Positions 26,774 to 43,238 of a stretch of 64,000 nt of DNA are shown one piece after another; position 1 is the stretch's first letter; the number at the start of each line of letters is the position of its first letter. The stretch covers positions 1,004,744 to 1,068,743 of the forward strand of contig CP129479.1 in assembly GCA_030583865.1 (NCBI GenBank). The letters are read 5' to 3'. Both the position numbers and the translations under genes were made by a program. The notes under the pieces are model-generated. The model saw only the letters and a program-made list of their open reading frames with translations, searched no databases and was not told the DNA's origin. The DNA comes from Thermodesulfobacteriota bacterium. GTDB lineage: Bacteria > Desulfobacterota > GWC2-55-46.

Positions 26774-27184
26774 ATGAAGATACTGTTCTGTCATGACGGC
26801 TCTGAAAACGCACAAAAGGCGCTGGACAAGACCCTGGATCTTTTCAAGCTCGCAAAGCCGGAAGTAGTACTCTTGATGGTCGTCGAGGGGGCCCGCGACG
26901 CAAGCATGGAAAACGAGGAGATATTCGAGAAGCAGCGCTCGGAGGGGCATGATTTCCTCATGAAGACCGCAAGGTACATCACGGGCAAGGGCTTCGACGT
27001 GGACGTCATACTCGCGAACGGCGACGCCAGGAAGATGATAATCGAGACTTCAAGGAACAAGCAGCCCGACATCATGGTCGTCTCCAAGCGCGGCGGCGGC
27101 ATCCTGGACAACATGGTGCTCGGGAGCGTGAGCGCGTATGTGGTCCGCCACGCCAAGTGCCCGGTCCTTGTGCTGCATACATAG
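26774..27184 (+). CDS. Universal stress protein (UspA), first copy
   Basis: A cytosolic single-domain Usp of 136 residues: 'MKILFCHDGSENAQKALDKTLDLF' at the N-terminus and 'DIMVVSKRGGGILDNMVLGSVSAYVVRHAKCPVLVLHT' (in pieces) at the C-terminus. The ATP-binding signature G-x2-G-x9-G-S is present except that the first Gly is Ser. ATG 26774 follows GGAGGAGAT. It is 39 bases upstream of narK and nearly identical in layout to the cassette at 28949, so it probably belongs to nitrate-linked stress signalling. Confidence 0.93.
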   Translation: MKILFCHDGSENAQKALDKTLDLFKLAKPEVVLLMVVEGARDASMENEEIFEKQRSEGHDFLMKTARYITGKGFDVDVILANGDARKMIIETSRNKQPDIMVVSKRGGGILDNMVLGSVSAYVVRHAKCPVLVLHT

Positions 27185-27223: not shown

Positions 27224-28714
27224 ATGCAAGTATCAGATCTCTTCAGATACAGGAACCCTGAAATAAAGGCGCTCCATCTCACCTGGATAGCGTTCTTCAT
27301 CTCGTTCTTCGTATGGTTCAACATGGCGCCCCTGGCCACCACCATGATGAAGAGCCTCGGGTGGCTCACCATGAAGGACGTGAAGATCCTTGCCATCTGC
27401 AACGTGGCCCTGACCATCCCGGCCCGCCTCATTACCGGCATGGCCCTCGACAAGTTCGGGCCGAGGAGGGTCTTCTCGGTCCTCATGGTCATAATGGCAG
27501 TACCGGCCCTCGTTTTCGCATTCGGCAACTCCTTCGCGCAGCTCCTGGCCTCGAGGCTGGTCCTGAGCTCCATAGGCGCGAGCTTCGTCGTGGGCATCCA
27601 CATGACGGCCCTCTGGTTCAAGCCAAAGGACATAGGCTTTGCAGAGGGCTTTTACGCGGGCTGGGGCAACTTCGGCTCCGCGGCCGCGGCAATGACGCTG
27701 CCCTACATAGCCCTCACCATGTTCGGAGGCGAGAGCGGCTGGAGATATGCCCTTGCCTTGAGCGCGATAATAATGGCCGCCTACGGCGTATTCTACTGGT
27801 TCGCGATAACCGACGGTCCGGCGGGCAGCATACACAGGAAGCCCAGGAAGGTCGCGGCCCTCGAGGTAAGCACCTGGGGCGACATGATAAAGCTCCTCAT
27901 CTGCACCGTTCCCATGGTCGGCATACTCGTGATACTGGTCTGGAGGATACAGAGTTCCGGGTACATGGGCGCGGGCTGGGCGTACGTCTGCTATCTTGTC
28001 ATAGCCGCAATCGTCATATGGCAGCTCGTACAGGTGCTGCTCGTGAACATCCCGATACTCAAGAAGGGAGTGCCAGAGGACGACAAGTACCCCTTCAACA
28101 GCGTCCTGGCCCTCAACACGACCTACTTCGCGAACTTCGGAGCGGAGCTCGCGGTCGTCTCCATGCTCCCGGCCTTCTTCGAGCAGACATGGACCCTTTC
28201 CGCCACCCAGGCCGGCCTCATCGCATCGTCCTTCGCCTTCGTGAACCTCTTCGCGAGGCCGCTCGGCGGCCTCATATCCGACAGGTTCACGAGCAGGAAA
28301 GTTGTCATGATGGTCTACATGTTCGGCATAGCCTGCGGCTTCTTCCTCATGGGGCTCATGGGCTCGACCTGGCCGCTCGTGCTGGCGATAATCGTGACTA
28401 TCTGCTGCTCGGTATTCGTGCAGGGCGCAGAGGGCGCGACCTTCGGCATAATACCCTCGATAAAGAGGCGCCTGACCGGGCAGATATCCGGCATGGCGGG
28501 GGCCTACGGCAACGTCGGCGCGGTCTTCTACCTCTTCGTACTCACCTTCGTTACCTCGAAGCAGTTCTTCTTCATCATATCAGCCGGCGCTTTCATAAGC
28601 TTCATCTTCTGCCTCGTATTCCTCAAGGAGCCGGAGGGCGGGTACTCTGAAGAGTATCACCTATCCTCTGTAGACAGGGAGATAGAGAAGGAGATGGGCG
28701 GCCTCGGCCACTAA
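27224..28714 (+). CDS. narK: NarK-type nitrate/nitrite transporter, first copy
   Basis: An MFS permease of the NNP family in the inner membrane, with 12 predicted TM helices in 496 residues. 'WFNMAPLATT' in TM1 and the nitrate signature 'GWGNFGSAAAAMTLP' (147-160, TM5) are present, with a second glycine-rich motif 'GMAGAYGNVGAVFYL' in TM11. 'LDKFGPRR' is the MFS motif between TM2 and TM3. It moves nitrate in and/or nitrite out; the mode cannot be told from sequence. It is coupled with the uspA upstream. Confidence 0.95.
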   Translation: MQVSDLFRYRNPEIKALHLTWIAFFISFFVWFNMAPLATTMMKSLGWLTMKDVKILAICNVALTIPARLITGMALDKFGPRRVFSVLMVIMAVPALVFAFGNSFAQLLASRLVLSSIGASFVVGIHMTALWFKPKDIGFAEGFYAGWGNFGSAAAAMTLPYIALTMFGGESGWRYALALSAIIMAAYGVFYWFAITDGPAGSIHRKPRKVAALEVSTWGDMIKLLICTVPMVGILVILVWRIQSSGYMGAGWAYVCYLVIAAIVIWQLVQVLLVNIPILKKGVPEDDKYPFNSVLALNTTYFANFGAELAVVSMLPAFFEQTWTLSATQAGLIASSFAFVNLFARPLGGLISDRFTSRKVVMMVYMFGIACGFFLMGLMGSTWPLVLAIIVTICCSVFVQGAEGATFGIIPSIKRRLTGQISGMAGAYGNVGAVFYLFVLTFVTSKQFFFIISAGAFISFIFCLVFLKEPEGGYSEEYHLSSVDREIEKEMGGLGH

Positions 28715-28948: not shown

Positions 28949-29359
28949 ATGAAGATAATGTTCTGCCATGACGGCTCCGAGAGGTCTAATGCCGCCCTTG
29001 AAAAGGCCCTCGGCCTCTTCAAGCACCTGAGCCCCGAGGTCTTTCTCATAACGGTCGTCGAGGAGCCGCTGGACGCGACCAGCCACGACGAGGAGAGCTT
29101 CGAGAAATGGCGGGCCACCCGCGAGGAGGACCTCCAGGAGGCGGCCAACCGGGTCGTCGAGCACGGGCTCGACGTGGACGCGATACTTGCCATAGGCGAC
29201 CCGAGGAAGATGATAATCGAGGCCGCGGAGAACAAGAACCCCGATATCCTGGTCGTGGCGCGGCGGGGCGCGGGCCTTCTGGAAAGCATGGTCCTCGGTA
29301 GCGTGAGCTCGTTTCTAGTCCGTAACGCCGAGTGCCCGGTGCTCGTCGTCCATTCATGA
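28949..29359 (+). CDS. Universal stress protein (UspA), second copy
   Basis: It has 136 residues from ATG 28949 (GGGGAGGG upstream); the frame is open to 28916 without support. 'MKIMFCHDGSERSNAALEKALGLFK' and 'ARRGAGLLESMVLGSVSSFLVRNAECPVLVVHS' (in pieces) parallel the first copy almost residue for residue. The ATP signature has Ala in place of the first Gly. It precedes the second narK by 76 bases and looks like a duplicated uspA-narK cassette. Confidence 0.93.
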   Translation: MKIMFCHDGSERSNAALEKALGLFKHLSPEVFLITVVEEPLDATSHDEESFEKWRATREEDLQEAANRVVEHGLDVDAILAIGDPRKMIIEAAENKNPDILVVARRGAGLLESMVLGSVSSFLVRNAECPVLVVHS

Positions 29360-29435: not shown

Positions 29436-30971
29436 ATGGGCTCTAACCATTATAGCCAGATAGGCCTCAGGGACCTTTTCGACCTCAAGCGGGCCGACAC
29501 AGTCATACTCCACAAGACCTGGTTCGCCTTCTTCCTTACCTTCTTCGTCTGGTTCAACATGGCCCCGCTCGCCACCACCATCGCGGCAGCGTCCGGCCTT
29601 ACGATGGACGAATTGAAGCTCCTGGCCGTCTGCAACGTGGCACTTGCGGCCCCGGGCCGCTTCATCATGGCGGGCCTTACCGACAGGTTCGGCCCACGGA
29701 AGACGCTTACTCTCATCATGGTCGCAACCTCTGTGCCCTGCCTCGCGTTCGCCTTTGCCGGCTCGTACGGCCAGATGATCGTCTCAAGGCTCCTCCTCGG
29801 AATGGTGGGCACCGGCCTCATGGCGGGCATACACATGACCTCGCTCTGGTTCAGGCCCAGGGACATAGGGTTCGTGCAGGGCGTCGAGGCGGGCCTCGGG
29901 AACTGGGGCTCGTCCATTGCGGCAATGCTCATGCCGGTCCTGGCCCTTAACGTATTCGGCTCGTGGAGGCTCGCCATAGCCATGAGCGGGGTCCTGATGC
30001 TCGTCTACGGGGCCTATTTCTGGTACACCGTATCGGACGGCCCGGAGCGCGCGTTCCGCCGGAGCCCGGGGAAGGGCTCGGCCATAGAGGTCTCCTCCTG
30101 GGGCGACCTCGTTGCGGCGCTCATCTGGACCGCGCCGATAACGGGCGTCCTCGCACTCCTGGTCTGGAGAGCGAGGGGCATGGGCTACATCGGAGGGGAG
30201 ATTGCCGCGCTCGCGTACGCCGTCATAGCCGCCGCGGTCCTTTACCAGACGGGCCGCGTCGTCCGCTTGAACCTCCCCATGCTGAAAAAAGGGGTCCCCG
30301 ACAGGGACCGATACCGGTTCACCGACGTCGGCGCCCTGTGCCTCTGTTACGTCGCCACCTTCGGCGCGGAGGTCGCGGTAATATCGATGCTGCCGGTTTT
30401 CCTGCAGAACGGGTTCAGCCTCACGCCCCAGCTCGCGGGCCTTCTGGGCGCGGCCTTCGCGTTCCTCAATATCTTTTCGCGGGCGCTCGGGGGTTATATC
30501 ACCGGCAGGATGCCCGCGAAAAGGGGCACCATGCTGGTGTACCTGGCCGGGGTGGCGGTAAGCTTCAGCCTCATGGGGCTCATAACTCCTGAGTGGCCCG
30601 TACCGTCCGTGGTGCTCGTAATTCTCCTGTGCGCGCTTTTCGTCACGGGTGGGTGCGGCATAACGTACGCCATAGTGCCGCTCATAAAGAGGCGCATGAC
30701 TGGCAGGATATCTGGCTACGTCGGGGCATACGGGAACGTGGGCGCCGTCGTCTTCCTGGTCGCCTACACGTTCGTGGGAGAGAGCCAGTTTTTTTATCTG
30801 ATAGGCGCGGCGGCCCTGGCAGCCTTCCTTTTCTGCCTCTTTTTCATGAAGGAGCCGGCCGGGGCCTTCTCAAAGGAGTACCAGCTTTACTGCGTGGGCA
30901 AGCGCCCGGCGGAGGGTGGGCGCGGCAGGGCTTCCGGGGCGCGGGCGCCTTTTGCGGACCGGGGCGCCTGA
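29436..30971 (+). CDS. narK: NarK-type nitrate/nitrite transporter, second copy
   Basis: A 12-TM MFS protein of 511 residues and a paralog of the protein at 27224 ('WFAFFLTFFVWFNMAPLATT', 'TDRFGPRK', 'GLGNWGSSIAAMLMP', 'GYVGAYGNVGAVVFLV'). TM5 has GLGNWGSS in place of GWGNFGSA, so the two may differ in specificity or direction. The C-terminus has an extra basic tail. ATG 29436 has only a weak ribosome binding site, so the start is less certain. The 250 bases after it hold a promoter. Confidence 0.93.
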   Translation: MGSNHYSQIGLRDLFDLKRADTVILHKTWFAFFLTFFVWFNMAPLATTIAAASGLTMDELKLLAVCNVALAAPGRFIMAGLTDRFGPRKTLTLIMVATSVPCLAFAFAGSYGQMIVSRLLLGMVGTGLMAGIHMTSLWFRPRDIGFVQGVEAGLGNWGSSIAAMLMPVLALNVFGSWRLAIAMSGVLMLVYGAYFWYTVSDGPERAFRRSPGKGSAIEVSSWGDLVAALIWTAPITGVLALLVWRARGMGYIGGEIAALAYAVIAAAVLYQTGRVVRLNLPMLKKGVPDRDRYRFTDVGALCLCYVATFGAEVAVISMLPVFLQNGFSLTPQLAGLLGAAFAFLNIFSRALGGYITGRMPAKRGTMLVYLAGVAVSFSLMGLITPEWPVPSVVLVILLCALFVTGGCGITYAIVPLIKRRMTGRISGYVGAYGNVGAVVFLVAYTFVGESQFFYLIGAAALAAFLFCLFFMKEPAGAFSKEYQLYCVGKRPAEGGRGRASGARAPFADRGA

Positions 30972-31864: not shown

Positions 31865-32434
31865 ATGGATTTGAGGAGTTGTAAAAAAATCTTGGTAAAA
31901 GGACTGCAGCTCGGGTTTGCGCTGAGTCTCGTAGCAGGTGTTGCCCCGATGAAGGCGGCCGCTTTCGAGAACGCCGAGCCGGGCGATGCCGCCCTCGGTA
32001 AGATGTACTTTACCGGCGAGAAGCAGTTCGCGAGCGGCGCGCCGGCCTGCATATCCTGCCACAACGCCGGAGTGGGCTCTCTCGGCGGAGGCGTCCTTGG
32101 TCCGGACCTGACCAACGTGTACGCCGACGATTCGAAGAACCCCCTTCTGAACGCGGCATGGATAAACGCCGGGTCCCCGGTAATGGCGCCGGTCTTCAGC
32201 AAGAGGAACGTCACTGACGAAGAGGTGTCCCACTTGAGGGCGTTCTTCGCCGAGCAGGCCAATGTCGAGGCAAAACCGGCCCCGACCGGAATCTTCACCA
32301 TCGTAGGCATAGGCGGTTTCGTAGGAATACTGATTATCTTCAACATAATCTGGAGCGGCAGGTACAGGAACAGGAATAGAGGCACCGCCCACGATGCCCT
32401 GTGGAGAAACTACGGCGGAAAAGGAGGGAGGTAA
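31865..32434 (+). CDS. Membrane-anchored monohaem cytochrome c of the nar operon
   Basis: It has 189 residues. A signal peptide (residues ~1-33, 'GLQLGFALSLVAGVAPMKAAA') is followed by one haem c site 'CISCH' (62-66) and a likely axial Met in 'GSPVMAPVF' (M107). A C-terminal TM helix 'IFTIVGIGGFVGILIIFNIIW' then anchors it, followed by a short basic tail. AAAGGAGGTG precedes ATG 31865. It is 4 bases from narG, so it is co-translated. This is like NarC in Thermus nar operons (which is dihaem there), and it may link NarGHI to a c-type or quinol pathway. Confidence 0.9.
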   Translation: MDLRSCKKILVKGLQLGFALSLVAGVAPMKAAAFENAEPGDAALGKMYFTGEKQFASGAPACISCHNAGVGSLGGGVLGPDLTNVYADDSKNPLLNAAWINAGSPVMAPVFSKRNVTDEEVSHLRAFFAEQANVEAKPAPTGIFTIVGIGGFVGILIIFNIIWSGRYRNRNRGTAHDALWRNYGGKGGR

Positions 32435-32438
32435 TTAG

Positions 32439-35400
32439 ATGGCTACCTGGATTCAAGATGAGATAAACCCCGGTAAAAGGGGTTGGGAAGAATATTACAG
32501 GAACCGCTGGCAGTATGACAAGACCGTGAGGTCCACCCACGGCAACAACTGCACCGGCGGCTGCTCCTGGATGGTCTACGTGAAGGACGGCATCATAACC
32601 TGGGAGCTGCAGGCCGTAGACTACCCGAAGCTCGACCAGTCCATACCGCCTTACGAGCCCAGGGGCTGCCAGAGGGGCATATCCGCCTCCTGGTACGTCT
32701 ACAGCCCGGTCAGGATCAAGTACCCCTACTGCCGCGGCGTGCTCCTCGACGCCTGGAAGGAAGCGAGGGCGAAGCACTCCGACCCGGTTGACGCCTGGAG
32801 GTCCATAGTTGAGAACGCAGAGCTCCACAAGAAGCTCAAGTGGTCCAGGGGCAAGGGCGGGTTCCGCAGGTTCGACTGGGACACCGCAGCCGAGATAATC
32901 GCCTCGGCCCACATCTACACCATAAAGAAGTACGGCCCGGACAGGATCATCGCCTTCTCCCCCATCCCGGCCATGTCGCAGATAAGCTACGCTGCCGGCG
33001 CCCGCTACAACCAGCTCATAGGCGGCGTGCACCTTAGCTTCTACGACTACTACACCGACCTCCCGAACGCCGAGCCCGAGGTATGGGGCGAGCAGACCGA
33101 CTCATGCGAGAGCGCGGACTGGTACAACACCGGCTACTGCGTCATAACCGGCGCCAACCCGAACATGACCAGGACCGCGGACTGCCACTTCGTCTCCGAG
33201 CTCCGGATGGGCGGCGCCAAGCTCGTAGTGTGCGCTCCAGACTACTCTCAGGTCACGAAGTACGCCGACAACTGGGTGCCCCTCAAGCCCGGCTCGGACT
33301 CCAACTTCTGGATGGGCATAAAGCACGTCATCCTTAAGGAGTTCTTCGTAGACAGGAAGGTGCCGTACTTCGAGGCCTACACCAGGCAGTTCACCGACCT
33401 CCCGATGCTCGTGAAGATCGAGAAGGGCAAGGACGGCTGGGAGCAGGGCAGGTTCCTCAGGGCGTGCGACCTCTCCGAATACGACGGCGAGGACAACCCC
33501 GAGTGGAAGTTCACCATGTGGGACGAGACCACCAACAAGGCGGTCGTCGTGAACGGCTCTATGGGCTACAGGTGGCCCAAGGACCACCACAGCCACGGCA
33601 AGTGGAACCTCCTCCTCCGTGAAGCCAAGACCCAGAAGAACATAAACCCCTCGCTCACGGTCCTCGACCACAAGGAGGACGCGATAGAGGTCAACTTCTA
33701 CGAGGTCGACAAGCCCGAGAAGTACAAGAGGCAGGTGCCCGTAAGGTACGTGCAGACCAAGGAAGGCAAGGTCGCCGTCACCACGGTATTCGACCTGAAG
33801 GTCGCCCAGTGCGGCGTCGCCCGCAAGGGCCTTTCCGGCGACTACTGCAGGAACTACGACGACGAGAGGGGCTTCTCGCCGGCATGGCAGGAGAGGTACA
33901 CCGGCATTGGCCGCGACACCATCATCCAGATAGCCAGGGAGTTCGCCTCCAACGCGGAAGTGACCAAGGGCCGCTCGATGATAATCACCGGGTCGAGCTA
34001 CAACCACTGGTACCACTCGAACCTCCTCTACAGGACCGCGATGGACGCGCTCATGCTCTGCGGCTGCGTGGGAAGGAACGGCGGAGGCCTCCAGCACTAC
34101 GTCGGCCAGGAGAAGCTCGCCCCATTCGACTCGTGGGGCCAGATAGCCCACTCGCTCGACTGGTACAGGCCGCCGAGGCTCATGAACAACCCGAGCTTCT
34201 GGTACATCAACACGACCATGTTCAAGTTCGACGGCGCGATAGCGGACTACCACAACGTCCCTGACAAGAACGCCCTCGAGTTCCAGCACACGGTCGACTA
34301 CAACGTCAGGGCCGTAAGGCTCGGATGGATGCCCTGCTTCCCGCAGTTCAACAAGAGCTCCATAGCGATCTGCGAGGAGGCCCAGAGGGCGGGCGCGAAG
34401 TCCGACGCCGAGATAATCGACTACGTGGTGAAGCAGCTGAAGAGCGGCTCGCTCGAGTTCGCGATGCAGGACCCGGACGCGCCGGAGAACTGGCCGAGGG
34501 TATGGTTCATATGGAGGGCGAACGCGCTCGGCTCGTCCGCCAGGGGCCAGGAGTACTTCTTCAAGTACGTCCTCGGCACCCATAACAACCTCATCGCCGA
34601 AGAGGTCGCCAAGCCCCACGTGAAGGAGATGAAGTACAGGGAGTCCCCGCTCGGGAAGCTCGACCTCCTCGTCGACCTCAACATGCGTATGAACACCACT
34701 CCGACGTACTGCGACATAGTGCTCCCGACGGCGCACTGGTACGAGAAGGAGGACATAAACACCACGGAGCTCCACTCCTTCGTCCACCCGATGGGCGCGG
34801 CGGTCCCGCCGAACTGGGAGGCAAAGAGCGACTGGGAGGCCTTCAAGTTCCTCTCCAAGAAGTTCTCCGGGATAGCGAAGAAGCACTTCCAGAAGCCGGT
34901 CAAGGACATCATCATGTCCCCGCTCATGCACGACACTCCGGGCGAGATAGCGCAGCCCGCGCTTGGCGGCGTGAAGGACTGGAAGAAGGGCGAGTGCGAG
35001 ATAATCCCTGGCAAGACCACCCAGAGCTTCACGGTCGTCGAGAGGGACTACGCCAACGTGGACAAGATGTACACGGCCGTAGGACCCCTCCAGAAGACCA
35101 AGTACGGCTTCCACGGCGTCATGCTCGATGGCAAGGAGCTCTACGAGGACTACCTCAACCAGGAGCACATCGAGAAGAAGGACGTGAACGGCCAGAAGCT
35201 CATCTCCCTCGAGACGGCAAAGGACGCCGCGAACTTCGTCCTCGCCTTCTCAGGCACCACGAACGGAGAGGTCTGCTTCAGGCAGTGGTGGGAGGAAGAG
35301 CACCACACCGGCCTCACCAAGGACGACTACCTCGAGGCTCGGAAACAGGCCAGGGCGGTCCATCCTGGAATCAAGTACCTCATACCGGACGAGAGGTGCC

Positions 35401-36167
35401 ACGGTCTCGCGCACGAGATGGCCAGCGGAAACAGGAACGTCTCGATGACCTACGACGACATAGTGGCGCAGCCCAAGAGGTGGCTCACCAGCCCGCTCTG
35501 GACCGGCGACACGAGGCGCGGAAGGGCATACGGCACCTGGACCATCCAGACCGAGCAGCTCGTGCCCTGGAGGACGCTCACGGGACGTCAGCACTTCTAC
35601 CTCGACCACCCGGTCTACCTGGACTTCGGCGAGGCCCTTTCAACCGCCAAGTACAGGCTGAACCCGGCCAAGATGAACGAGGTCGAGAAGTCCGACAGGA
35701 CCGACGCGCTCCACCTGAACTACATCACCCCGCACAGCAAGTGGGCCATCCATTCGACCCACTATGACAACCTGAGGATGCTCACCCTGTCCAGGGGCGG
35801 AAACTCCATCTGGCTGAACGACAGGGACGCCGAGAGCGTGGGCATCAAGGACAACGACTGGGTCGAGGCCTACAACGACAACGGAGTCTATGTAAGCCGC
35901 GCGGTCGTCAGCGCCAGGATCCCCTCGGGCAGCTGCTTCGCCTACCATTCACAGGAAAGGACCGTGAACATACCCAAGGCGGAGCAGAGGAACAAGATCA
36001 GGGGCGGATTCCACAACTCGCTCACCAGGCAGAGGCTCAAGCCGCAGCTCCTGACCGGCGGTTACGGGCAGTTCTCCTACGGCTTCAACGCGTGGGGCCC
36101 GATCGTCGTCATCAGGGACACGACGGTCTTGGTGAGAAAAATGAGAAACCAGGAGGTGAAGTGGTAA
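32439..36167 (+). CDS. narG: Respiratory nitrate reductase alpha subunit
   Basis: The molybdenum (bis-MGD) catalytic subunit that reduces nitrate to nitrite. It has 1242 residues. The N-terminal FS0 [4Fe-4S] site uses the His/Cys pattern H34, C38, C42, C77 ('HGNNCTGGC', 'PRGCQRG'). The Mo-ligand Asp lies in 'FYDYYTDLPNAEPEVWGEQTD' (in pieces; D207). There is no Tat signal, only the vestigial 'NPGKRGWEEYYRNRWQ', so it is expected on the cytoplasmic side as in E. coli. NxrA of nitrite oxidisers can look alike, but the narGHJI order and the full NarI favour nitrate reduction. It abuts narH (1-base gap). Confidence 0.96.
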   Translation: MATWIQDEINPGKRGWEEYYRNRWQYDKTVRSTHGNNCTGGCSWMVYVKDGIITWELQAVDYPKLDQSIPPYEPRGCQRGISASWYVYSPVRIKYPYCRGVLLDAWKEARAKHSDPVDAWRSIVENAELHKKLKWSRGKGGFRRFDWDTAAEIIASAHIYTIKKYGPDRIIAFSPIPAMSQISYAAGARYNQLIGGVHLSFYDYYTDLPNAEPEVWGEQTDSCESADWYNTGYCVITGANPNMTRTADCHFVSELRMGGAKLVVCAPDYSQVTKYADNWVPLKPGSDSNFWMGIKHVILKEFFVDRKVPYFEAYTRQFTDLPMLVKIEKGKDGWEQGRFLRACDLSEYDGEDNPEWKFTMWDETTNKAVVVNGSMGYRWPKDHHSHGKWNLLLREAKTQKNINPSLTVLDHKEDAIEVNFYEVDKPEKYKRQVPVRYVQTKEGKVAVTTVFDLKVAQCGVARKGLSGDYCRNYDDERGFSPAWQERYTGIGRDTIIQIAREFASNAEVTKGRSMIITGSSYNHWYHSNLLYRTAMDALMLCGCVGRNGGGLQHYVGQEKLAPFDSWGQIAHSLDWYRPPRLMNNPSFWYINTTMFKFDGAIADYHNVPDKNALEFQHTVDYNVRAVRLGWMPCFPQFNKSSIAICEEAQRAGAKSDAEIIDYVVKQLKSGSLEFAMQDPDAPENWPRVWFIWRANALGSSARGQEYFFKYVLGTHNNLIAEEVAKPHVKEMKYRESPLGKLDLLVDLNMRMNTTPTYCDIVLPTAHWYEKEDINTTELHSFVHPMGAAVPPNWEAKSDWEAFKFLSKKFSGIAKKHFQKPVKDIIMSPLMHDTPGEIAQPALGGVKDWKKGECEIIPGKTTQSFTVVERDYANVDKMYTAVGPLQKTKYGFHGVMLDGKELYEDYLNQEHIEKKDVNGQKLISLETAKDAANFVLAFSGTTNGEVCFRQWWEEEHHTGLTKDDYLEARKQARAVHPGIKYLIPDERCHGLAHEMASGNRNVSMTYDDIVAQPKRWLTSPLWTGDTRRGRAYGTWTIQTEQLVPWRTLTGRQHFYLDHPVYLDFGEALSTAKYRLNPAKMNEVEKSDRTDALHLNYITPHSKWAIHSTHYDNLRMLTLSRGGNSIWLNDRDAESVGIKDNDWVEAYNDNGVYVSRAVVSARIPSGSCFAYHSQERTVNIPKAEQRNKIRGGFHNSLTRQRLKPQLLTGGYGQFSYGFNAWGPIVVIRDTTVLVRKMRNQEVKW

Positions 36168-36168
36168 T

Positions 36169-37689
36169 ATGGATCTCAGAGCGCAGCTTTCAATGAGCTT
36201 TCATATGGATAAATGTATCGGCTGCCACACCTGCAGCGTGTCCTGCAAGAACGTCTGGACATCGCGCAGGGGCGCCGAGTACATGTGGTGGAACAACGTC
36301 GAGACCAAGCCCGGCGCCGGCTACCCCCTCACCTGGGAAGACCAGGAGAGGTACAGGGGCGGCTGGGAGGTCTCGGGCGGCAACTTGAGGCTCAAGCTCC
36401 TCAAGGGCCCCGGCAAGATAAGGACGCTGGCGAACATATTCTTCCAGCCCAACCTGCCGACGATAGACGACTACTACGAGCCGTTCACCTATGACTATCA
36501 GAACCTCTTCAACGCGCCGGCCGGCGACGACCAGCCCGTTGCGAGGCCGAAGTCGCTTATCACCGGCGACTTCATGGAAAAGATAATCATGGGCCCGAAC
36601 TGGGACGACGACATGGGCGGCTCGCCGCTCTACGCGGCGAACGACCCGAACCTCAAGGGGCTCTCGGAGTCGCAGAAGGAGATGCTCACCAAGTTCCACA
36701 AGCTCTTCTTCTTCTATCTCCCGAGGATATGCAACCACTGCCTCAACCCCGCTTGCGTGGCCTCCTGCCCGTCGGGCGCCATATACAAGAGGGGCGAGGA
36801 CGGCATAGTCCTTATCGACCAGGACACCTGCCGCGCCTGGAGGTTCTGCGTGAGCGCCTGCCCGTACAAGAAGCCCTACTACAACTGGGCGAACGGGAAG
36901 AGCGAGAAGTGTATCTTCTGCTATCCGAGGACCGAGACCGGCCAGCCGAACGCCTGCGCGCACGCGTGCACCGGCAGGATCAGGTTCGTAGGCGTGCTCT
37001 TCTATGACGCCGACAGGATAGAGGAAGTCGCGAAGACCCCGGACGAGAGGCTCGTGGACGCGATGAGGGACATAATCCTCGACCCGAACGACCCGAGGGT
37101 CATTGAAGAGGCCAGGAAGCAGGGGATCGACGAGAACTGGCTGGTTGCGGCCCAGAACTCGCCGGCCTACAACCTCTTCAAGAAGTGGAGGATAGCGCTC
37201 CCGAACCATCCGGAGTTCAGGACGGTGCCGATGAACTTCTATCTGCCGCCGCTCTCCCCGGTCCTCCACAACGCGAAGGCCGACAACGGCGGCCTCTTCG
37301 ACGCTGAATCCGTCGAGTTCTTCTATTCGATGGACAAGATGAGGGTGCCGGTAAGGTACCTCGCGAACCTCCTTTCCGCCGGCAACGAGCAGCTGGTCAT
37401 CGAGTCGCTGAAGAAGCAGATGGCCGTAAGGCTCTGGGTGCGCCAGCAGAGGGTCGGAGACGTGGGCGACAGCGCAGCGAAGGCAGCCCTCTCATCCGTG
37501 GGCCTCACGCCCGAGGACGCGTTCGAGATCTATAAGCTCACCTCGCTTGGCACCTTCCAGGAGAGGTTCGTGATACCCGAGACACACCGCGAGACGCAGT
37601 CCACGGTCGACCCCAGGACCATGTACGAGAAGAGGGGCACGGTCGGCTTCGGCTCCAAGAAGCAGGAACTCGTATCGAGGCAGTGGTAA
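36169..37689 (+). CDS. narH: Respiratory nitrate reductase beta subunit
   Basis: NarH carries four iron-sulfur clusters between NarI and NarG. It has 506 residues. Cluster ligands are 'CIGCHTCSVSC' (C16, C19, C22, C26), 'CNHCLNPACVASCP', 'CRAWRFCVSACPYKK' (the Trp in place of Cys marks the [3Fe-4S] site, as in E. coli) and 'CIFCYPR...CAHACTGR'. It abuts narG, and narJ follows after 8 bases. Confidence 0.96.
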   Translation: MDLRAQLSMSFHMDKCIGCHTCSVSCKNVWTSRRGAEYMWWNNVETKPGAGYPLTWEDQERYRGGWEVSGGNLRLKLLKGPGKIRTLANIFFQPNLPTIDDYYEPFTYDYQNLFNAPAGDDQPVARPKSLITGDFMEKIIMGPNWDDDMGGSPLYAANDPNLKGLSESQKEMLTKFHKLFFFYLPRICNHCLNPACVASCPSGAIYKRGEDGIVLIDQDTCRAWRFCVSACPYKKPYYNWANGKSEKCIFCYPRTETGQPNACAHACTGRIRFVGVLFYDADRIEEVAKTPDERLVDAMRDIILDPNDPRVIEEARKQGIDENWLVAAQNSPAYNLFKKWRIALPNHPEFRTVPMNFYLPPLSPVLHNAKADNGGLFDAESVEFFYSMDKMRVPVRYLANLLSAGNEQLVIESLKKQMAVRLWVRQQRVGDVGDSAAKAALSSVGLTPEDAFEIYKLTSLGTFQERFVIPETHRETQSTVDPRTMYEKRGTVGFGSKKQELVSRQW

Positions 37690-37697
37690 AGGAAACG

Positions 37698-38243
37698 ATG
37701 GTAAAGGCGAAGCACCTGTATACGCATCTGGCCGGGCTGCTTGAGTATCCCGGTGAGGATATAAAGCTCAGGACCGAGGAGTGCATAAACGCGCTCGAAG
37801 GCCTTGAGCAGTATCCTCCCGAGGCGCTCGAGGAGATGAAGAAGTTCCAGAAGGACCTGGAGCACATCCCCCTGGACGACCTCCGGGGGGTGTACTCCTA
37901 CACCTTCGAGCTCACGAGCGACTTCACGCTGGACATGGGATACCACATCTATGACGGCTTCAGGAGGTCAAGCAGCCTTGCCACCATCAAGAGCATGTAC
38001 GCGCAGAACGGCTTCCCTCTCGACGATTTTTCGAAAGGCGAACTCCCCGACCACCTGCCGGTCATCCTCTACTTCCTCGGCTTCACGGAGAACGAGGATC
38101 TCGTAAAGGACTTCCGGGAGAGTTTCTTCATAAGGGCGATGGAGAAGCTGCAGAAGAACTTCGAGAAGAACAGGAAGAATCTCTACTGGCACCTCATCAA
38201 TGCCGTCTACAGAATTATAGATAAAGACGTAAAAGGAGGCTAA
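37698..38243 (+). CDS. narJ: Nitrate reductase molybdenum cofactor assembly chaperone
   Basis: NarJ holds NarGH until the cofactor is inserted and is not part of the final enzyme. It has 181 residues from ATG 37698 (AAAGG upstream; the frame is also open to a GTG at 37683 inside narH). 'FTFELTSDFTLDMGYHIYDG' (seen as 'YTFELTSDF') and 'ELPDHLPVILYFLG' match the TorD/NarJ family. It is in the canonical order between narH and narI. Confidence 0.92.
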   Translation: MVKAKHLYTHLAGLLEYPGEDIKLRTEECINALEGLEQYPPEALEEMKKFQKDLEHIPLDDLRGVYSYTFELTSDFTLDMGYHIYDGFRRSSSLATIKSMYAQNGFPLDDFSKGELPDHLPVILYFLGFTENEDLVKDFRESFFIRAMEKLQKNFEKNRKNLYWHLINAVYRIIDKDVKGG

Positions 38244-38245
38244 GA

Positions 38246-38944
38246 ATGGACAACGTCCTATTCGGCGTGATGCCGTACATCCTGTTGATGACGGCTATCG
38301 TCGGCGCAATCTGGAGATACAGAACCAACAAGTACTCGTGGTCTTCGCAGTCGTCGCAGTTCCTTGAGAACAAGACCCTCTTTTTCGGGTCGTTCCCCTG
38401 GCACTACGGCATAATAGTGGTGCTCCTCGGCCACATAATCGGGTTCTTCATCCCGAAGAGCATCCTGCTCTGGAACGCGGTGCCCTTGAGGCTCTACATA
38501 CTCGAGCTCACGGCGCTCGCATTCGGCCTTCTCGCCCTTTTCGGCCTCCTCGCCCTCATCTACAGGAGGCTTACGAACAGCAGGGTAAAGGCCGTGACCT
38601 CCGGGTGGGACGTGCTGGTGCTCATCATCCTTCTCATCCAGGTCCTCACCGGCGTTGGCACCGCCATCTTCTACAGGTGGGGCTCCAACTGGTTCGCTTC
38701 ATCGGCCGTGCCGTATCTCTGGTCGATAATCAAGCTGCAGCCCAATGTTGACTACATAGCGGGCCTGCCGCTCATCACCAAGGCGCACATATTCAACGCG
38801 CTTATCTTCTTCGCGCTGATTCCGTTCTCAAGGCTCGCGCACTTTGTGGTCATCAACCCCTACAAGTACCTCGTAAGGCCTTACCAGGTCGTAAGGTGGT
38901 ACAGGAGGGGCGGTCAGACAGTGAACGTGGTGCAGTACAAGTAA
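38246..38944 (+). CDS. narI: Respiratory nitrate reductase gamma subunit (dihaem b)
   Basis: A membrane subunit that oxidises quinol and passes electrons to NarH. It has 232 residues and five TM helices. Haem b ligands are H53 ('PWHYG'), H63 ('LLGHIIGF'), H181 ('KAHIFN') and H199 ('RLAHFV'), with spacings matching E. coli H56, H66, H187, H205. It is followed by a strong terminator. Confidence 0.95.
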   Translation: MDNVLFGVMPYILLMTAIVGAIWRYRTNKYSWSSQSSQFLENKTLFFGSFPWHYGIIVVLLGHIIGFFIPKSILLWNAVPLRLYILELTALAFGLLALFGLLALIYRRLTNSRVKAVTSGWDVLVLIILLIQVLTGVGTAIFYRWGSNWFASSAVPYLWSIIKLQPNVDYIAGLPLITKAHIFNALIFFALIPFSRLAHFVVINPYKYLVRPYQVVRWYRRGGQTVNVVQYK

Positions 38945-39066: not shown

Positions 39067-40707
39067 ATGTCGAAAATAACAAGATGGGAGCCGGAAAACG
39101 AACAATTCTGGCGAGAAACAGGCAGCAAGATTGGATGGACCACCTGCGGCATTACCACCTTCACCCTGGTATTTTCATTCGCTACCTGGTTCGTCATGAG
39201 CGCCGTTGTCGTCAGGCTTCCGAACATCGGCTTCAAGTTCACTCCCATGGAGCTCTTCTGGCTCGCGGCCATACCGGGTCTCGCCTCCGGTATCCTCAGG
39301 TTGATACACTCCTACTTCATCCCCATCCTGGGGACGAGGCCGGTCGTAAGCATAGCGACCATCATCAAGCTCATACCCATGGTCTGGCTCGGTTTCGCAG
39401 TGCAGGATACAAGCACGCCATGGAGCACCTTCATGATAATCGGCTTCCTGAGCGGCATGGGCGGCGGGGACTTCTCCTCCTACATGCCTTCAACAAGCAT
39501 ATTCTTCCCGAAGAGGCTCCAGGGCCTGTCAATGGGCATACAGGCCGGCATCGGAAACTTCGGCGTTAGTGTCGTCCAGTTCGTGACACCCTGGATAGTG
39601 GGCTTCTCCCTTGTCGGGGGCGCTTACGGCGCACCCCAGCTCTTCACGAAAATTGACATTATAAAGGACGTGGCGGTCACCAAGAACGAGTCAGGGGTTG
39701 TCACGGACATAGTCTACAAGAACCCGGCATTTGCCAGCGCGGTTCTCGTCACCAAGGACGATAACGGCCTGGTGAGCGACGTCTCAGTACAGGAGACAGC
39801 CGTAACCAAGAACATGCAGCTCGATATCAAGAGGAACGACGCGGGCGTCGTGACCGACCTGACCCTCAAGAGGGTAGTAAAGAAGGACATGTGGGTGCAG
39901 AACGCCGCGTTCTGGTACATACCCTTCCTCATCCTGTCCTTCATCCTGAGCGTCATATTCCTCAAGAGCATCGACCCGGCGGCGCTCGGTTTCAAGGGCG
40001 GCAACTTCAAAAAGCAGTTCGAAATACTCAGCACCAAGAACAGGGCGCTCACGCACACCTGGAACTGCACCATAACCTATATCGCGTCATTCGGTTCGTT
40101 CTCCGGTTATGCGGCAGCTTTTCCATTGATGATAAGGGTCATCTACGGCGGCTTTGACGGAGCGCCGGACCCGCTGAAGTTCGCGTTCCTCGGCCCGCTC
40201 ATCGGTGGCCTTTCACGCACCTTTACCGGTTGGATGTTCGACAAGATCGGCGGAAGCAAGGGCATGCACTGGTGCCTGATCGGCCAGATACTGGGCTGCC
40301 TTGCCCTCATATTCGGCGGCTATCTTACCCCGACCGGGCTTGAGAAGTTCCCGGGCTTCGTCTATATAATGCTCTGGATATTCCTCATGACCGGCATAAA
40401 CAACGCCGCTACTTTCAGGCAGTACCCGATAGTCTTCGCGTACTCGCCCGCAAAGGGCGCGCAGATGCTCGGCTGGACCGGCGCGTGGGCGGCCTTCGGC
40501 CCGTTCGTCTTCGCCTCGCTCGTCGGCATGTCCATAACCAAGACCGGCAGCGCCATCACCTTCTTCGCGGGTGCGGCCATCTTCTACCTCTACGCCTTCA
40601 TCATCAACTGGTATTACTATACCAGGAAGGGCGCGGAAAGGTTTGACTGGGGCAACAAGGGTACCTGGTGGGACACCGCCAAGAGCACCTGGACCGGCGG
40701 GCAATAG
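39067..40707 (+). CDS. narK: NarK-like MFS transporter with a large repeat-bearing insertion
   Basis: An NNP-family permease of 546 residues with MFS TM helices, including 'GMGGGDFSSYMPSTSIFFP' and 'GIQAGIGNFGVSVVQFVTPW' (TM5 nitrate signature). Between TM6 and TM7 (about 190-277) is an 85-residue insertion with three imperfect ~25-residue repeats at 204-218, 228-242 and 254-268 (consensus V-T-K-x-x-x-G-V-V-T-D-x). The insertion is absent from the two other NarK proteins here. In the MFS fold the TM6-TM7 loop is cytoplasmic. GGAGAATCTGC precedes the ATG. It is monocistronic behind the nar terminator. Confidence 0.88.
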   Translation: MSKITRWEPENEQFWRETGSKIGWTTCGITTFTLVFSFATWFVMSAVVVRLPNIGFKFTPMELFWLAAIPGLASGILRLIHSYFIPILGTRPVVSIATIIKLIPMVWLGFAVQDTSTPWSTFMIIGFLSGMGGGDFSSYMPSTSIFFPKRLQGLSMGIQAGIGNFGVSVVQFVTPWIVGFSLVGGAYGAPQLFTKIDIIKDVAVTKNESGVVTDIVYKNPAFASAVLVTKDDNGLVSDVSVQETAVTKNMQLDIKRNDAGVVTDLTLKRVVKKDMWVQNAAFWYIPFLILSFILSVIFLKSIDPAALGFKGGNFKKQFEILSTKNRALTHTWNCTITYIASFGSFSGYAAAFPLMIRVIYGGFDGAPDPLKFAFLGPLIGGLSRTFTGWMFDKIGGSKGMHWCLIGQILGCLALIFGGYLTPTGLEKFPGFVYIMLWIFLMTGINNAATFRQYPIVFAYSPAKGAQMLGWTGAWAAFGPFVFASLVGMSITKTGSAITFFAGAAIFYLYAFIINWYYYTRKGAERFDWGNKGTWWDTAKSTWTGGQ

Positions 40708-41289: not shown

Positions 41290-41604
41290 ATGAGCAAGCA
41301 CGACAGGCTGGACCGTTTCGGTGTCATGGTCATCGACAAGAGCGAATACGAGCGCAAGCAGGCTTACGTGGTCAAGAACTGCAAATGCCCGGGCTGTCCC
41401 ACATATGTCGCGGGCGACGCCATGCCGGGATACTGTTTCCCGACCATAGGGACGAGCGAGAGCATCACGGCGGAAAAGGATTGCATCTGCAGCACCTGTC
41501 CTATATACAAGGAATACGAGCTCAACCATACTTTTTACTGCACCAGGTGCTCCCAGGTCTGCCAGGGGCTCAAGATCGAGGGTGCGGCAGCCCACGGGAA
41601 CTGA
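41290..41604 (+). CDS. Cys-rich small protein, DUF2769-like
   Basis: It has 104 residues with eleven Cys, mostly in pairs: 'CKCPGCPTY' (residues ~32-40), 'GYCFPTIGTSESI', 'CICSTCPIY' and 'CTRCSQVCQG'. Both 'CxCxxCPxY' halves look like a duplicated metal-binding unit. This fits my memory of DUF2769 (mainly methanogens and anaerobes), but no search could be run. GGAGG-like sequence and a consensus promoter precede it. A Zn or Fe-S binding role is plausible. It is monocistronic in the nitrate island. Confidence 0.75.
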   Translation: MSKHDRLDRFGVMVIDKSEYERKQAYVVKNCKCPGCPTYVAGDAMPGYCFPTIGTSESITAEKDCICSTCPIYKEYELNHTFYCTRCSQVCQGLKIEGAAAHGN

Positions 41605-41883: not shown

Positions 41884-42390
41884 ATGGAGATCACCACCCC
41901 GGAACAGGCTAATGCAGAAATCAAGAAGTGGCTTGAGGAGAACCATCACGACGTAAAGGAAATAAAAGACGAGAACGCCGTATTCCATTTCGAGATCGAC
42001 TACCCGCTCGGCTCCATGAAGAAGCAGAGGGTGCTCCAGCCCAAGGAGTTCCCCGGCCTTATCGTGGTGCTGAACGGGGTCAGCATAGCGAACGAGCACA
42101 TGGAGAAGCTCAAGGGCATGAACCCCAACGACAGGGAAGCCTTCTACGGGGAGATAAGGAAGGACCTCCTCTTCCTCAAGAACAGCTACGACCTCAACAT
42201 AGACGAGGCCGGGGTGGCGAAGCAGGTGCAGTTCTCGTATGAGTTCTACTACGACGCGCTCAAGAAGACCAAGCTCTATGACGCGCTCCTCCTTAACCAC
42301 AGGACGCTTCTTTACATCATAACGAAGTTCAACGACGAGTTCGGAATGCCCGTAATGCCCTCGCAGAAAGGCGATGTAGGTCACGCCTGA
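41884..42390 (+). CDS. DUF2299-like conserved hypothetical protein
   Basis: It has 168 residues and is soluble. 'IKKWLEENHHDVKEIKDENAVFHFEIDYP' and 'VLQPKEFPGLIVVLNGVSIANEHMEKLKGMN' (in pieces) and a helical C-terminal half ('FYGEIRKDLLFLKNSYDLNIDEAG') are seen. It is reminiscent of the DUF2299 family known from archaea and anaerobes, as far as I can recall. ATG 41884 is preceded by GAGGAGAGTTGG. It lies 35 bases ahead of the hemerythrin gene and is probably co-transcribed with it. The function is unknown. Confidence 0.7.
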   Translation: MEITTPEQANAEIKKWLEENHHDVKEIKDENAVFHFEIDYPLGSMKKQRVLQPKEFPGLIVVLNGVSIANEHMEKLKGMNPNDREAFYGEIRKDLLFLKNSYDLNIDEAGVAKQVQFSYEFYYDALKKTKLYDALLLNHRTLLYIITKFNDEFGMPVMPSQKGDVGHA

Positions 42391-42425: not shown

Positions 42426-43238
42426 ATGGTACCGCAGATGCTTGAGATAAAATACGAATGCCAGCACAAGTCCTGCTACGTGAACTGCAGGGAGGGCATC
42501 ATAAGCCTTGAAGAGGAGCTCTTCAAGGAGCTTTCCGCCGCTTGTCCCGGGGAGGGCATCTTCAAGAGCCCCAGGGGGGCCTGCAGGATGGGCTTTTCGC
42601 AGCCGTTCAAGGTCATTAGGATGCAGAGGCTCGGCGAAGGCCCCATCGAGGACGCCCCCTCGGCGCTGGACCCCTCTGACAACCCGCTCCTGATCCTTGT
42701 CGAGGAGCACAAGGCCATAAACAGGAGCCTTGAAAAGGTCGAGGAGCACATAAAGAAGCGCGACCTGGACGCCCTCTGGGTCTCGACAAAGGAGCTTGAG
42801 AACGACCTGGTGCTCCACTCAGGCATCAAGGAAGAGGAGGTCCTCTTCGGCATGAGCAAGGGGCTTCTGCCCTTCGGCGAGACCCTGGTGGACATAATAA
42901 AGGAGGAGCACAGGGAGATAATCTCGCTCCTTCACAACTTCAGGGAGGCGCTCGAGATAAACGAGCTTAACGACGGCATCATCGACTCCGTGATAGTGAG
43001 CCTCAGGGGGCACATAAGGAAAGAGGACCAGGAGTTCTTTGAAATAGTCGACAAGTGCCTGAACGACGAGATACGGCTCCAGATAACCCAGGCCATGCGC
43101 GAGGTCGAGAGGAAATACGTGCGGGAAGAGGCGGGCGAGAGAAAGATGAACCCGAAGAGGGCCGCCATACAGGCCCAGTACGACGAGCAGGTCTCGGTGG
43201 TGAGGGAGGCGGGCTGCGATACCTGCTGCAGCCACTGA
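42426..43238 (+). CDS. Hemerythrin-domain protein with extra Cys-rich ends
   Basis: It has 270 residues. An N-terminal Cys-containing stretch ('YECQHKSCYVNCREG', then 'ACRMGF') precedes an HHE-type four-helix bundle with metal-ligand-like patterns 'EEHKAINRSLEKVEEHI', 'LVLHSGIKEEEVLF', 'IKEEHREIISLLHNF' and 'LRGHIRKEDQEFF'. The C-terminus ends 'CDTCCSH'. Hemerythrin domains bind a di-iron site and act in O2/NO sensing or iron-sulfur repair (RIC/YtfE class). Next to nitrate reduction, an NO-stress role is inferred. ATG 42426 follows GGAGGTCCGC. Confidence 0.88.
   Translation: MVPQMLEIKYECQHKSCYVNCREGIISLEEELFKELSAACPGEGIFKSPRGACRMGFSQPFKVIRMQRLGEGPIEDAPSALDPSDNPLLILVEEHKAINRSLEKVEEHIKKRDLDALWVSTKELENDLVLHSGIKEEEVLFGMSKGLLPFGETLVDIIKEEHREIISLLHNFREALEINELNDGIIDSVIVSLRGHIRKEDQEFFEIVDKCLNDEIRLQITQAMREVERKYVREEAGERKMNPKRAAIQAQYDEQVSVVREAGCDTCCSH

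Follow-up and report, generated by a model that had tools for sequence, protein, structure and literature searches.

A conserved beta-hairpin module in the central loop of NarK nitrate/nitrite exchangers, exchangeable between proteins and possibly docking to nitrate reductase

The nar cluster and its NarK

The window analyzed here, a stretch of 64,000 nucleotides from contig CP129479.1 of a Thermodesulfobacteriota bacterium, contains a nar cluster with the gene order cytochrome c, narG, narH, narJ, narI, narK. The cluster is headed by a c-type cytochrome gene (31865..32434, +; weak NCBIfam cytochrome c matches), followed by narG (32439..36167, +; TIGR01580, 1409.6 bits, above cut-off), in which a twin-arginine start is not visible, narH (36169..37689, +; TIGR01660, above cut-off), narJ (37683..38243, +; TIGR00684, E=5e-11, below cut-off) and narI (38246..38944, +; TIGR00351, above cut-off), which ends 122 bases 5' of the narK start codon. 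This order resembles the narCGHJIKT arrangement of Thermus (PMC6282519, PMC6394727). The window NarG is of full length, yet its best TIGR01580 match spans positions 27-991 of the 1235 in the model. Upstream of each of two NarK1-like genes (27224-28714 and 29436-30971) is a universal-stress-protein-like gene (26774-27184 and 28949-29359, respectively), so that the pair is repeated. Downstream of narK lie the open reading frames 41290-41604 (Cys-rich), 41884-42390 and 42426-43238 (hemerythrin-like by eye); none of them matches an NCBIfam model, and they remain beside narK in many relatives.

The narK gene (39067..40707, +) is an intact frame of 546 aa encoding a member of the NNP family of nitrate/nitrite exchangers. 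Its TIGR00886 score of 220.5 bits (E=3.4e-65) is lower than the curated cut-off of 311.7 bits; this cut-off does not decide membership, because the two ordinary NarKs of the window, with 304 and 248 bits, likewise score under it. E. coli NarK matches the protein by sequence with E=2e-61 and is also the top Foldseek match of the full AF2 model (4u4v, E=1e-26, TM normalised by target 0.87), the similarity in sequence and fold extending across both bundles. Residues R78 (39298..39300, +) and R384 (40216..40218, +) align with R89 and R305 of E. coli NarK, which we take, from the NarK structures, to be the substrate-binding arginines. Since both are present and invariant in 58 sequences, the window NarK should be a functional exchanger. 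Judged from its sequence, it belongs to the respiratory nitrate/nitrite exchangers of the NarK type.

An insertion of beta-hairpins between TM6 and TM7

The protein carries an insertion of 88 residues (190-277; 39634..39897, +, an exact correspondence). The sequence of the E. coli NarK crystal structure can be aligned up to query residue 184 and resumes at residue 273; the insertion is thus genuine and is located between TM6 and TM7, as the initial annotation had claimed. In the compared loop segment, the window NarK has 119 residues, the sister NarKs 46. The initial annotation had also described three copies of the motif V-T-K-x-x-x-G-V-V-T-D-x, at residues 204-218 (VTKNESGVVTDIVYK), 228-242 (VTKDDNGLVSDVSVQ) and 254-268 (IKRNDAGVVTDLTLK). 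The copies are where it had placed them, but the motif is letter-exact in the first copy only; common to the copies is the pattern K-x(2-3)-G-[VLA]-V-x-D. The best self-match of the insert over 14 residues scores 42, a value reached by none of 300 shuffles of the insert (maximum 32, mean 18). In a six-frame translation of the complete window, a relaxed motif has three occurrences, two of them inside the insertion. It is absent from the two other NarKs of the window, in agreement with the claim that they lack the insertion.

AF2 was run on the full protein with an alignment of 58 sequences and on the insert alone with 35 sequences. The mean pLDDT of the full protein is 85.3, with values of about 80-86 in the insert; the insert alone yields a pLDDT of 85.2, a pTM of 0.63, and strands nearly as in the full model. 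Seven strands and one short helix are predicted (AF2/DSSP): strands 191-199, 202-206 and 212-217, helix 220-225, and strands 226-230, 236-241, 250-256 and 262-275. The model reads as three hairpins framed by two strands, one at the entry and a long one at the exit that reaches TM7, and these two strands may pair with each other. The entry strand (residues 191-199) is encoded by 39637..39663 (+), hairpin 1 (202-217) by 39670..39717 (+), hairpin 2 (226-241) by 39742..39789 (+), and hairpin 3 together with the exit strand (250-275) by 39814..39891 (+).

In each hairpin, across 36 sequences, a lysine before the turn, the turn glycine and an aspartate after it are kept, giving the triads K206/G210/D214, K230/G234/D238 and K255-R256/G260/D264 (G260 invariant, D264 nearly so). 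Further conserved or invariant residues are E243, K248, K268, K272, K273 and W276, of which the invariant K268, K272, K273 and W276 lie next to the membrane. Conserved charges of this kind point to a fixed ion-pair ladder or to a binding face. The predicted strands, their pLDDT and the conservation of the repeats in 36 sequences support the earlier idea that the central MFS loop contains a small beta-structured module, and they exclude a disordered loop without repeats.

Searches for relatives of the module were largely negative. Foldseek with the insert alone found no significant match in PDB and BFVD (none at E<=0.001 in PDB), and the best VIA-align Z is 2.7; the lack of a PDB or BFVD match is no proof of a new fold. 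Sequence searches of the insert against Pfam, NCBIfam and PDB gave nothing credible. The GspA/SrpA SigLec-like domain (PF20164) was rejected, its score of 17.4 bits falling short of the Pfam cut-off of 27.4 and only 3 of 17 inserts matching; more generally, the SigLec-like, GUCT and SMC-hinge models gave weak, scattered matches under their thresholds. We found no description of a beta module in the central loop of NarK in the open-access literature, and the module is apparently undescribed so far.

Distribution and relation to known transporters

A profile of the insert was searched against sets of genomes; the taxon labels given here are those of the records, and the MAGs may be mixed. The profile matches 11 of the 395 genomes in the window's phylum, 4 of 146 within a single class of that phylum, 9 of 295 (one marginal) in the phylum of a MAG labelled Nitrospiria, 1 of 191 in that of a MAG labelled Bdellovibrio, and 3 of 150 in the order of a MAG labelled Rhodocyclaceae. 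At least four phylum-level groups are represented among the roughly 40 other NarKs that have the module at this site. All strong matches lie at the same place within NarK frames, nearly all of which are about 540-625 aa long (that of G054 is cut at a contig end). Stand-alone copies were therefore rejected, the sole match elsewhere being marginal (G689, E=0.008), and so was a mobile or phage origin, with no matches in phages, plasmids and viral contigs. The initial annotation had allowed for a common NNP variant of known role; the module does recur across several phyla, but we found neither a role nor a description for it.

The compared loop segment has 115-162 residues in the module-bearing NarKs, as against 28-59 in other bacterial NarKs. 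On the core tree the module-bearing proteins form one clade, and a single origin is likely; it is not proven, because the joining branch has a support of only 64%. No loss of the whole module was seen within this clade. In genome G011, an in-frame TAG close to the loop divides the module-bearing NarK (L021, L042) into frames of 293 and 326 aa, which may indicate a pseudogene or an error in sequencing. A separate group of NarKs of about 540 aa (L029, L030, L055, L056, L058 and L040 8134-9741) is without a long TM6-TM7 loop, and its ~90 extra residues are located outside that loop.

E. coli NarK (4u4v, 4jr9) and NarU (4iu8) share with the window NarK the fold, the aligned substrate arginines and the N-terminal half up to TM6, but the TM6-TM7 loop of E. 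coli NarK is short and without the beta module. Closer still are insertion-less paralogues in the same nar setting, sometimes in tandem (L026, L027, L034, L012, L051), which are about 50-65% identical in the regions flanking the loop and whose loop segment has 46 residues (FTKGEVVKDIWLQN) compared with 119 in the window NarK. Beta inserts elsewhere in MFS proteins are found in SV2A (luminal) and PepT1/2 (extracellular), and SV2A is among the MFS matches of the full model in Foldseek. Like the window NarK, these proteins have a folded beta domain added to the MFS core; unlike it, they have it in other loops and on the opposite side of the membrane. In the NNP family, the central loop is described as cytosolic (PMC6695921), with up to 90 residues in fungi and fewer in prokaryotes. 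The fungal transporters NrtA and YNT1 resemble the window NarK in having a long TM6-TM7 loop, and hairpin repeats are not reported for them in that description. The window NarK is a new form within a known transporter family (NNP/NarK), not a new kind of system.

Unit number, loop exchange and selection

The loops occur in two forms, with three units (115-119 residues in the compared segment) or four (138-162), and the additional unit is a homologous hairpin. The two forms are intermixed on the core tree, which demands at least six changes of unit number, versus two on the loop tree. By the AU test, the core alignment rejects a group made up of the window family's three-unit proteins (p=0.001). 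Conversely, the loop alignment, from which the columns of the extra hairpin were excluded for the AU test, rejects the core pair L006+L013 (p=0.0013) as well as the placement of L007 with the L012 group (p below 1e-60). These p-values are somewhat flattering, the groups having been chosen after the trees were seen. Pairwise identities also differ between core and loop: the identity of L006 and L013 falls from 92% in the core to 56% in the loop, that of L024 and L018 rises from 65% to 75%, and sliding profiles locate the change around the loop. Each of the two trees rejects groupings of the other, which is most simply read as replacement of the loop by recombination on two or more occasions, the loop passing from one NarK to another like a cassette.

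The loops diverge faster than the cores in amino-acid sequence. Within the window's genus, the dN/dS of the loop is about 0.05-0.15, similar to that of the core; on these estimates the loop is under purifying selection as strong as that of the core.

Gene setting of the module-bearing NarKs

Among contigs of sufficient length for a judgement, nearly all have the module-bearing narK within a nar cluster, where it follows narI, a second NarK or a further respiratory gene set, or else lies upstream of narG. An apparent separation from narG in L046 and L075 was dismissed, as longer stretches place narG in the same cluster; L040 is an exception, with narG on a different contig of the same draft genome. 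The gene narG is present in 19 of the 20 module-bearing genomes checked, and in the twentieth, a draft genome, narK is on a 7-kb contig. The NarGs of these genomes belong to three or more score classes; the window's lineage has a divergent C-terminal part, and classical NarG occurs in other module-bearing genomes. Loops with three or four units are not sorted by NarG type: the window type and classical NarG each occur with both. Sister genomes (L026, L027) have an insertion-less NarK in the same place beside narI. In some relatives a second, insertion-less NarK directly follows the module-bearing one (L034 8248-9564, L051 7935-9251, L012 9-1325); such tandems provide a natural pair for comparing NarKs with and without the module.

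Possible functions of the module

That the insertion is an artefact of assembly or gene calling has a negligible probability: the frame is open in a single-contig genome, about 40 other genomes carry the conserved sequence, and nothing speaks in favor. We rank docking to nitrate reductase (NarGHI), or to an assembly or associated protein of it, first, as a tentative explanation, because the module is folded, cytoplasmic, selected and tied to nitrate respiration, and because assemblies of NarK with NarG are known from E. coli and P. aeruginosa. E. coli NarK co-precipitates with NarG under nitrate respiration, the sole condition in which it belongs to the NarG interactome (PMC6805990); NarK2 of P. 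aeruginosa interacts with NorC in an assembly that also contains NarGH (PMC5658584). The module of three hairpins, or four in some relatives, faces the cytoplasm according to the topology in the literature, and the active subunit of nitrate reductase lies on this side. By serving as a docking handle, it could keep the exchanger in contact with NarGHI or with a protein associated with it; imported nitrate would then reach the enzyme, and nitrite would leave without accumulating. Docking is favored by the pLDDT of about 82-85 of the beta module, the purifying selection on it, the charged residues conserved in 36 sequences (K206, D214, K230, D238, E243, K248, D264, K268, K272, K273), and the location of narK in nar clusters across three NarG score classes and differing gene orders. 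However, E. coli NarK joins the NarG assembly without any such module and insertion-less NarKs (L026, L027) occupy the same site beside narI, hence the module is unnecessary for association as such. Furthermore, the number of units does not track the NarG type, and co-occurrence says little, as every NarK is functionally tied to NarG. The initial annotation had left a partner or a ligand open; we favor the machinery of nitrate respiration as the partner, which we infer from the evidence above.

A role inside NarK itself, as a lid or strut in the cytoplasm or as a stability element, tuning bundle movement or the exchange cycle, is possible but rather doubtful. The module directly joins the two bundles, its entry and exit strands reaching TM6 and TM7, and the four residues beside the membrane are invariant; yet loops that move between NarKs independently of the core and differ by a whole hairpin are unexpected for a closely fitted element. 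It is unlikely that the module is a regulatory sensor which binds a small ligand or a signalling protein and adjusts transport. A folded, selected cytoplasmic module with conserved charged residues would suit this function, and in fungal NNP transporters the cytosolic central loop can reach 90 residues (PMC6695921), but no known ligand-binding fold or family is matched, and a variable number of repeats is unusual for a single binding site. Less probable again is a tolerated decoration, i.e. a hairpin that arose once, multiplied and folds harmlessly. The changes in unit number on the core tree, the fast amino-acid divergence of the loops and the insertion-less relatives in the same gene setting would fit this reading. 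Pure decoration is nevertheless disfavored because of the low dN/dS; positions invariant across phyla and the lack of any whole-module loss seen in the clade also stand against it.

Taken as a whole, the proposal of an undescribed, exchangeable docking module of beta-hairpin repeats that physically links the nitrate reductase assembly to the import of nitrate and the export of nitrite, and that is swapped and resized independently of the transporter core, is on the speculative side. It concerns the passage of nitrate and toxic nitrite between NarK and nitrate reductase, both of which are found in common assemblies. Module-bearing NarKs and their close insertion-less relatives in the same gene setting allow a clean comparison by deletion or transplantation of the module. 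If the proposal is true, these proteins would be an example of an MFS central loop that evolves as an exchangeable domain.
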